Below, piece after piece: positions 8,612 through 10,396 of a stretch of 64,000 bases of DNA (the first letter of the stretch is position 1; every line of letters starts with the position of its first letter). This DNA is from Sphingobacteriales bacterium (lineage in GTDB: Bacteria; Bacteroidota; Bacteroidia; Sphingobacteriales; Sphingobacteriaceae). The position numbers were made by a program, and so were the translations under genes. The stretch is from assembly GCA_004293485.1 (NCBI GenBank), contig RDYW01000031.1, positions 1 to 64,000 on the forward strand, written 5' to 3'. The notes beneath the pieces were generated by a model. The model was not told where the DNA came from. It saw nothing but the letters and a program-made list of their open reading frames with translations, and did no database searches.

Positions 8612-10396
8612 ATGCACCGAACCCATACTTGTGGCCAATTAAACATTAACCACCTTAACCAAAATGTTACCCTAAGTGGCTGGGTACAAAAATCACGCGA
8701 TTTGGGTGGTACTACTTTTATTGATATGCGAGACCGTTATGGCATTACACAATTGGTAATTAACTCCGATGATGAGGAAACCTTGAGGGCAAAAGCCCGT
8801 GAGCTAGGCCGAGAGTTTGTAATAAAAGTTACCGGCCAGGTGGTTGAACGCTCGAACAAAAACCCCAAAATAAGTACTGGCGATATAGAAATTAGGGTTT
8901 TTAGTTTAGATATTTTAAACCAAGCAAAATTGCCACCTTTTATGATTGAGGACGAAACCGACGGAGGCGAAGAGCTACGTATGAAATACCGCTACCTCGA
9001 TTTACGCCGCAACCCTGTACGCAACAACCTTATTTTGCGCCATAAAATGGCCCAAGAAATCAGAAAATATTTAGATTTACAAAATTTTTTAGAAGTAGAA
9101 ACGCCTGTACTTATAAAATCTACACCCGAAGGAGCCCGAGATTTTGTGGTACCTAGCCGAATGAACGCCGGCGAATTTTACGCTTTACCACAATCGCCAC
9201 AAACATTTAAACAATTGCTGATGGTATCTGGTTTCGACCGATATTTCCAAATTGTAAAATGTTTTAGAGATGAAGATTTACGGGCCGACCGCCAGCCCGA
9301 ATTTACGCAAATAGATTGCGAAATGGCTTTTATTGAGCAAGAAGATATTTTAAATGTGTTTGAAGGCTTAACCCGCCATATATTTAAAACAATAAAAGGG
9401 TTAGAGTTTGAGGCTTTTCCAAGGATGCTTTACGCAGATGCGATGCGTTTATACGGCTCCGATAAGCCTGATATACGTTTTGATATGCAATTTGTGGAGC
9501 TAAAAAACGCCACTTTACCAGAAAATGAAGCCCCTCTCCTTTGGATAAGCGGGGGTGAGGCTGGATTTCCGGTTTTTGATAATGCCGAAATGGTGGTAGG
9601 CATAAATGCCAAGGCTTGTGCACATTACACCCGCAAGCAGCTAGATGAACTTACCGATTTTGTAAAACGCCAGCAAATAGGTGCCACAGGCTTAATTTAT
9701 ATGCGCCATAACGATGATGGAAGTTTAAAATCGTCGGTTGATAAATTTTATACCGAAGAGGATTTAAAAAAATGGGCGTTAGCATTTAATAGCCAACCCG
9801 GCGATTTATTGTTGATAATGGCTGGGGCCAAAGATAAAGTACGCAAACAATTAAGCGAACTTCGCTTAGAAATGGGCAACCGCCAGGGCCTGCGAGATAA
9901 AAATAAATTTGCCCCGCTGTGGGTAATAGATTTTCCGTTGTTAGAGTGGGACGAAGAAAGCGAACGCTACCACGCTATGCACCACCCTTTTACATCGCCT
10001 AAGCCCGAAGATATTGTTATGCTAGATACCCACCCTGGCGAAGTGCGGGCAAATGCCTACGATTTAGTAATAAACGGTACCGAAATAGGCGGTGGTTCTA
10101 TCCGTATTCACGATAAAACGCTACAATCGTTAATGTTTAAACACTTGGGCTTTACGCCCGAAGAAGCGCAAAAACAATTTGGATTTTTACTTGAAGCCTT
10201 CGAATATGGCGCACCACCACATGGCGGTATTGCTTTTGGTTTTGATAGGTTGGTATCTGTTTTTGCAGGTTTAGATTCTATTCGTGATGTTATCGCATTT
10301 CCTAAAAACAACTCGGGGCGAGATGTGATGATAGATTCGCCATCAACTATTGATGAAAAACAAATGAAAGAATTGAGTATAAAAACAATGTTGTAA
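8612..10396 (+). CDS. aspS: aspartate-tRNA ligase
   Basis: A class II synthetase of 594 residues. It has the N-terminal OB anticodon-binding fold ([20 protein letters not shown]), motif 2 ([18 protein letters not shown]), the bacterial-type insertion domain, and motif 3 ([10 protein letters not shown]). All catalytic motifs look intact. The oddity lies in the insertion domain. Between FVEL and GFPVFD the protein has about 20 residues where relatives I recall have about 8. The extra part is encoded by a GC-rich repeat-like 36-mer, annotated separately. The gene is monocistronic. Confidence 0.97.
9527..9562 (+). repeat. translated GC-rich repeat inside aspS (12 extra codons)
   Basis: The bases cccctctcctttgga, then a variable middle, then gggggtgaggct closely resemble a palindromic repeat family (CCCCTCTCC-TTTGGA-GAGGGG-TTGGGGTGAGG) that I recall as abundant between genes of many Bacteroidota. 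It fills exactly 12 codons ([12 protein letters not shown]) in the aspS frame. It sits where AspRS homologues have a short surface loop. The 3' GAGAGGGG arm is mutated to taagcg here. The match to the family is from memory, not from a search. Confidence 0.6.

Follow-up and report, generated by a model that had tools for sequence, protein, structure and literature searches.

The aspS gene and its insert

The window that we analyzed, a stretch of 64,000 nucleotides from a Sphingobacteriales genome (G000), contains the aspartyl-tRNA synthetase (AspRS) gene aspS at positions 8612..10396 of the forward strand. This 594-amino acid ORF, with the Pfam tRNA-synt_2, GAD and OB-fold domains, is matched in 59 of 60 relatives and is host to an insert. 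Bases 9527-9562 of the same strand, GAAGCCCCTCTCCTTTGGATAAGCGGGGGTGAGGCT, occupy exactly 12 in-frame codons (residues 306-317), which confirms the coordinates and ORF of the initial annotation. A profile match and the identity to intact copies mark the segment as a palindromic element in what we call the A orientation, in a decayed state. The profile match (G000:C25:9531-9562) has E=3e-8, the copy itself being one of the 26 rows on which the profile was trained, and 32 of 36 nucleotides are identical to the intact elements in the aspS genes of G008 and G005. The 5' arm, CCCCTCTCC (9531..9539, forward strand), is intact and occurs once in the window versus 0.01 times expected. It retains CCTCTCC, whereas the 3' arm (9543..9549, forward strand) has changed from GGAGAGG to GGATAAG, as seen by comparison with loci L042, L043 and L046; the palindrome proposed for 9527-9562 therefore stands in one arm but is decayed here. 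The outer end of the element is a conserved tail, GGGGGTGAGG (9551..9560, forward strand), located by exact match and by the boundaries of the family. Other matches of this tail in the window's genome (L010 exact; L015, L018, L019 and L020 with one mismatch) were rejected as unrelated sequence.

The 12-codon segment is real, but the altered region is wider than the 36 bp first delimited, because the preceding 24 bp (9503..9526, forward strand; residues 298-305) also replace ancestral sequence. Those 24 bp encode a leader, KNATLPEN, and aligning A-type, B-type and empty loci by codon indicates that leader and palindrome together replace an ancestral NDIVKGFG; the leader is present with the palindrome in all A-type copies. 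Where relatives without the insert read FVELNDIVKGFGFPVFD, this protein has a 30-residue stretch, which makes it 13 residues longer on balance. A gap of 13 residues lies opposite the insert in the closest solved AspRS, 6wom_A. In an AlphaFold2 model (mean pLDDT 75.9) the insert is part of a coil (residues 300-319) that has a strand on one side and a helix on the other.

States of the AspRS loop among relatives

Across 30 aspS loci, the window's own and those of relatives, three forms of the loop were seen: an empty form (FVELNDIVKGFGFPVFD), form A (FVELKNSTLPxxEAPLLWRGGGEA-FPVFD) and form B (FV-SLTPTLSEGEGE-DLVKGFGFPVFD). Forms A and B are the same palindrome read from opposite strands, CCTCTCCTTTGGAGAGGCGGGGGTGAGGCT in A and AGCCTCACCCCAGCCCTCTCCGAAGGAGAGGGAG in B. 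The short loop that had been proposed for relatives is borne out by the 19 of the 30 fetched loci that have no insert, and the 12 residues are thus far from universal. Form A is decayed in the window, decayed too in G006, and nearly unrecognizable in G004. Undecayed inserts are palindrome DNA on either strand, and copies in the genus lie both within and between genes, as expected of the dispersed palindrome originally suspected within AspRS.

On an aspS tree built with the insert removed, the A, B and empty states need eight changes; A and B each account for at least four of the label changes. All three states occur at branch lengths of 0.01-0.04: A in G009, B in G014, and empty in G013 and G011. 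The alignments show the AspRS segment to be an in-frame, stop-free insert in a loop of the enzyme, which close relatives have, lack or have in reverse. Among G005, G008 and G009 the 36-nucleotide core is identical at 35-36 of 36 positions, compared with 54-65% identity at third codon positions; such conservation could reflect a recent insertion, exchange among copies or a constraint acting on the DNA. Horizontal transfer with co-converted flanks seemed likely on visual inspection but was set aside, a windowed test of G014 versus G013 not being significant (7/90 differences in the flanks, a level that 19% of windows attain). Two MAG records, L120 and L141, titled Bdellovibrio sp. and Bifidobacterium breve, contain a Bacteroidota-type aspS, and their titles or bins are probably wrong.

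The palindrome family and its in-frame copies

The element is an asymmetric palindrome of 34 bp, CTCCCTCTCC-TTY-GGAGAGGG-YY-GGGGTGAGGCT, of which the left part can also be written CTCC-CTCTCC. A stack of 76 copies has sharp 34-bp edges by information content, with no conservation in the flanks. Neither a target-site duplication nor a target consensus is visible in these stacked flanks, where local base changes blur the boundaries, and the consensus, which starts CTCC and ends with GGGGTGAGGCT, bears neither a GTAG nor a CGTC tag at its ends. The strict pattern gave 66 matches in 13 of the 18 genomes of the genus, with none for a reversed-pattern control; across the family it is matched in 45 of 151 genomes and 10 of 25 genera. 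A profile search detected 1-51 copies in each of the other genus genomes and exactly two in the window's genome, the aspS copy (one of the 26 training rows) and one at G000:C83:4557-4591. The idea that the 36-mer recurs in this genome accordingly holds for the family but not for the exact 36-mer, which has no second match. The second copy is held by a gene on contig C83 (L229:421-3879, reverse strand) for a 1152-amino acid Eco57I/MmeI-like restriction-modification protein. In the same protein there is an in-frame Y1_Tnp (RAYT-like) stretch immediately ahead of the methylase motif NPPY. Elsewhere, four tandem copies of the element with a spacing of ~134 bp were found at G139:C1:578749-579177.

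Our own tally counts 64 separate strict places in the genus genomes; 48 lie in read-through frames of at least 150 amino acids, 28 being internal, 16 N-terminal and 4 C-terminal. Host identities were checked with Pfam and NCBIfam on representatives. The internal copies are in leuS (9), aspS (7), metH (3), argC (3), miaB (3), valS (2) and a restriction enzyme gene (1), and they use five of the six reading frames. These data show the same palindrome in frame within many other housekeeping genes of the genus. Some of the N-terminal copies may precede the real start codon. At the N-termini of murD and argB (e.g. L155, L167 and L151), GTGAGGCT of the element could provide the start codon, GTG (MRLVILGAGES in MurD), and some of these copies may therefore be leader sequence rather than peptide.

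Composites with a DUF559 nuclease domain

While the leuS hosts of the element were being examined, a DUF559 domain was first seen within the editing domain of leucyl-tRNA synthetase (LeuRS). DUF559 (Pfam PF04480) is a Vsr-like nuclease family of the PD-(D/E)XK type, and one embedded copy also matches the Vsr model weakly. Two LeuRS sites contain the domain in frame, as do IcmF, a ligase-associated DEXH helicase (TIGR04121) and a type ISP restriction enzyme, and domain scans detected related composites in MetH, HsdR, IleRS and RecJ. Fusions at a terminus exist as well: DUF559 is joined to HisF at the N-terminus of the latter, and in L379 it follows a PurL-type amidotransferase domain on the C-terminal side. 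The HisF fusions (L273, L280, L321, L323, L326, L334, L335 and L336) come from several Sphingobacteriaceae genera and carry a different palindrome; their linker (SPFRGLGG and similar) has the look of a translated palindrome.

In the family sample, 34 of 123 DUF559 matches are in frames of at least 430 amino acids. The strict element lies within ~450 bp of 12 DUF559 matches where 0.10 would be expected, an excess of ~100-fold over chance, although it is beside only 11 of the 34 long-frame copies and 1 of 65 short ones. When the matching is relaxed, most embedded copies (LeuRS, IcmF, helicase) are flanked on both sides by the inverted palindrome or a close variant, the outer ends of the pair being GCCTCACCC...GGGTGAGGC. 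Terminal inverted repeats are shared by the element and the nuclease composites at L270, L320, L369, L372 and L388, which shows the same palindrome as the inverted terminal repeats of composites with DUF559 cargo, in frame in the host ORF. Many further DUF559 copies, including standalone genes, are accompanied by hairpins that are related but not the same in sequence. Because 11 of 18 standalone DUF559 genes also have terminal inverted repeats, embedding and repeats are separate features. Many solo palindromes are far from any DUF559 gene, and the window's genome has no DUF559 match.

Residues E16, D44, E55, D57 and H61 of DUF559 are invariant in 31 copies. The embedded copies form one clade (support 93/93), in which the icmF copies are nested among those of leuS with moderate support (90/75). 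In a LeuRS model (mean pLDDT 70) the DUF559 domain has alpha/beta elements of its own, and the low-confidence linkers are the translated palindromes. Pfam detected no Hint or splicing domain in two sets of ten host proteins, and the DUF559/palindrome insert seems to remain in the host protein without splicing.

Intermediate states in LeuRS and argC

Four states were found at the second LeuRS site: empty, one end, both ends, and both ends with the nuclease. The empty site is AAATATAAA-GACGAA-TATGAGTAC in G008, with G000 and G002 similar. G007 has a single right end, G017 has both ends without the nuclease, and both ends together with DUF559 occur in G050 and G229, which belong to two further families; the boundaries are the same across states or within one codon. 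Among the argC genes, that of G014 contains a left end and that of G003 a right end, and in G015 the palindrome is complete, with its two arms. It is this series at LeuRS site 2 and argC that connects solo palindromes, the AspRS insert among them, with the nuclease-bearing composites. The leuS gene of the window's genome is clean.

Other inserts were seen in leuS. In the window's closest relatives (L265-L267, from G016, G006 and G004), DUF559 is flanked by another palindrome family, translated as NPPQPPEGGS / TPPSGAGG. At the LeuRS CP1 site, which is a DUF559 site in relatives, a different GC-rich repeat (GSVVGSRKTAGNGLQTSSF; RPTSEVGSQDSSDLRLRTSDL) is present in L340, L360 and L362 (G012, G013 and G009), so the site attracts several repeat families. 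The leuS genes of G013, G014, G009 and G003 (L360-L363) have unrelated, species-specific in-frame inserts of ~50-90 residues at one site after FVYR.

Discussion

We place a probability of roughly 0.6 on the AspRS insert being a translated, decaying fossil, the solo end of a nuclease-linked palindrome; the part of this reading that we infer is that the DUF559 nuclease drives the spread. In the model, DUF559 would cut or nick its target, and the element would be copied into the site during repair, with minor gain or loss of bases nearby. The 34-bp length is not divisible by three, and insertion sites have lost a few host codons. Internal deletion would produce derivatives with two ends or one, and selection would leave only those inserts that are stop-free and in frame in tolerant surface loops. 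With no DUF559 match in the window's genome, its copies would be stranded and decaying; that absence, the clean LeuRS and the presence of two copies point to the element being a fossil there. Several observations count against this reading: no transposition was seen, the stacked flanks gave neither a target-site duplication nor a target consensus, many solo copies are remote from DUF559 genes, most DUF559 copies lack a strict element alongside and many of these have hairpins of other sequence, the HisF fusions have their own palindrome, the icmF nesting is only moderately supported, and the co-conversion test at aspS was negative. The initial reading of the AspRS segment, a mobile palindrome accommodated as a peptide insert, is supported by the comparative sequence data, but mobility is better seen in relatives than in the window's genome, because the latter has a decayed fossil and one sister copy.

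The excess of the element beside DUF559, ~100-fold above chance, has to be set against the alternative that it is a classical REP mobilized by a RAYT, a REP-associated transposase of the Y1/HUH type, with DUF559 no more than one further gene that comes to sit beside palindromes. Y1_Tnp proteins, including RAYT-sized ones, are encoded in 18 of 18 genus genomes, RAYT subclasses with atypical REPs have been published for Bacteroidota (PMC6006769), and the gene holding the second copy of the window's genome, L229, also contains a Y1_Tnp-like stretch. Apart from that restriction gene, however, the element is in the flanks of 0 of 55 Y1_Tnp/RAYT loci, one other match having 4 mismatches, and it has none of the GTAG or CGTC tags at its ends. 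We consider mobilization by RAYT quite improbable. That the palindrome spreads by an unidentified route, such as template switching, hairpin-primed repair or recombination between copies, and that DUF559 is a flanked passenger is also unlikely in our view. Such a route would sit well with the lack of a target-site duplication, the variable net length of inserts and the few host codons lost at the site, and also with the LeuRS CP1 site, which is occupied by several repeat families for which no enzyme has been identified. But the embedded DUF559 domains form their own clade with conserved residues intact, and their presence in at least eight unrelated host genes, mostly between inverted hairpins, is more than the capture of cargo predicts.

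It is scarcely credible that the insert is ordinary loop variation at the protein level with an accidental likeness to a palindrome. The AspRS loop does vary, the copy in the window has decayed, and the predicted coil is of moderate confidence only, but the DNA of the insert is that of a dispersed repeat, which is found in both orientations and in more than one reading frame, and its core is conserved far beyond the third codon positions of aspS. Copies elsewhere in the genus already disfavor loop variation.

The fossil nuclease-linked palindrome that we favor has several known counterparts. Rickettsia palindromic elements (RPEs; Ogata et al. 2000, reviewed in PMC2229807) are in-frame palindromes of 105-146 bp in conserved genes. 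The comparison with them made at the outset is apt: the Bacteroidota element is likewise in frame in conserved genes, stop-free in the frames used, also intergenic, and tolerated by the host enzyme. It is absent from orthologs with an empty aspS or leuS, as is typical of RPEs, and has further copies in metH, argC, miaB and valS. It differs from RPEs in its length of 34 bp, in its bacterial phylum and in forming the terminal repeat of nuclease composites. Some REPs are also known to lie within ORFs (PMC3733652). REPs and REPINs with RAYT (PMC3733652, PMC6006769, PMC3116915) resemble the element in being asymmetric hairpins, single or in inverted pairs, that flank a nuclease-type gene. Their enzyme, however, is a HUH tyrosine transposase rather than a PD-(D/E)XK/Vsr-like DUF559, and they have a GTAG/CGTC tag and are mostly intergenic, in contrast to the untagged element, most of whose genus copies are in coding frames. 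RAYT-REP systems are nevertheless its nearest functional analog. MITEs and RUP (PMC2229807, PMC10969869) are also short and non-autonomous and have ends in common with a larger nuclease-bearing partner; for the element, no target-site duplication is seen and the larger partner is itself embedded in host genes.

A search of open-access papers by title and abstract, with most subscription journals outside its coverage, returned no link between DUF559 and palindromes, and for Bacteroidota in-frame palindromes or a LeuRS nuclease domain the open literature held nothing closer than PMC3733652. In-frame palindromes are known, as Rickettsia RPEs and intragenic REPs, and the nuclease link, for which no report was found, makes a serious case for a new element class. 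We give even odds to the full form of this proposal: a class of mobile element in which a DUF559 nuclease between hairpin inverted repeats would insert, unspliced, as a translated domain in conserved genes, with solo palindromes as non-autonomous copies or scars. Its repeats would be open in most reading frames, and its host genes often essential. Inteins with homing endonucleases likewise place a nuclease domain in frame in conserved, often essential proteins at recurrent sites; the DUF559 inserts are alike in placement and differ in that no Hint domain was found in the scanned hosts.

We know of no mobilizing enzyme for the Rickettsia elements and, to our knowledge, none has been identified for any protein-coding palindrome since they were described. 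A palindrome common to a nuclease-bearing element, together with intermediate states at one site, makes the question of the mobilizer directly testable. If our proposal is true, the DUF559 element would be a nuclease-driven counterpart of RAYT-REP, living in coding sequence. Essential enzymes such as LeuRS, IleRS and AspRS appear to accommodate a translated repeat or a nuclease domain of foreign origin with no splicing domain in sight, which is of relevance for annotation, for structural work on these synthetases, and for the origin of new protein segments.
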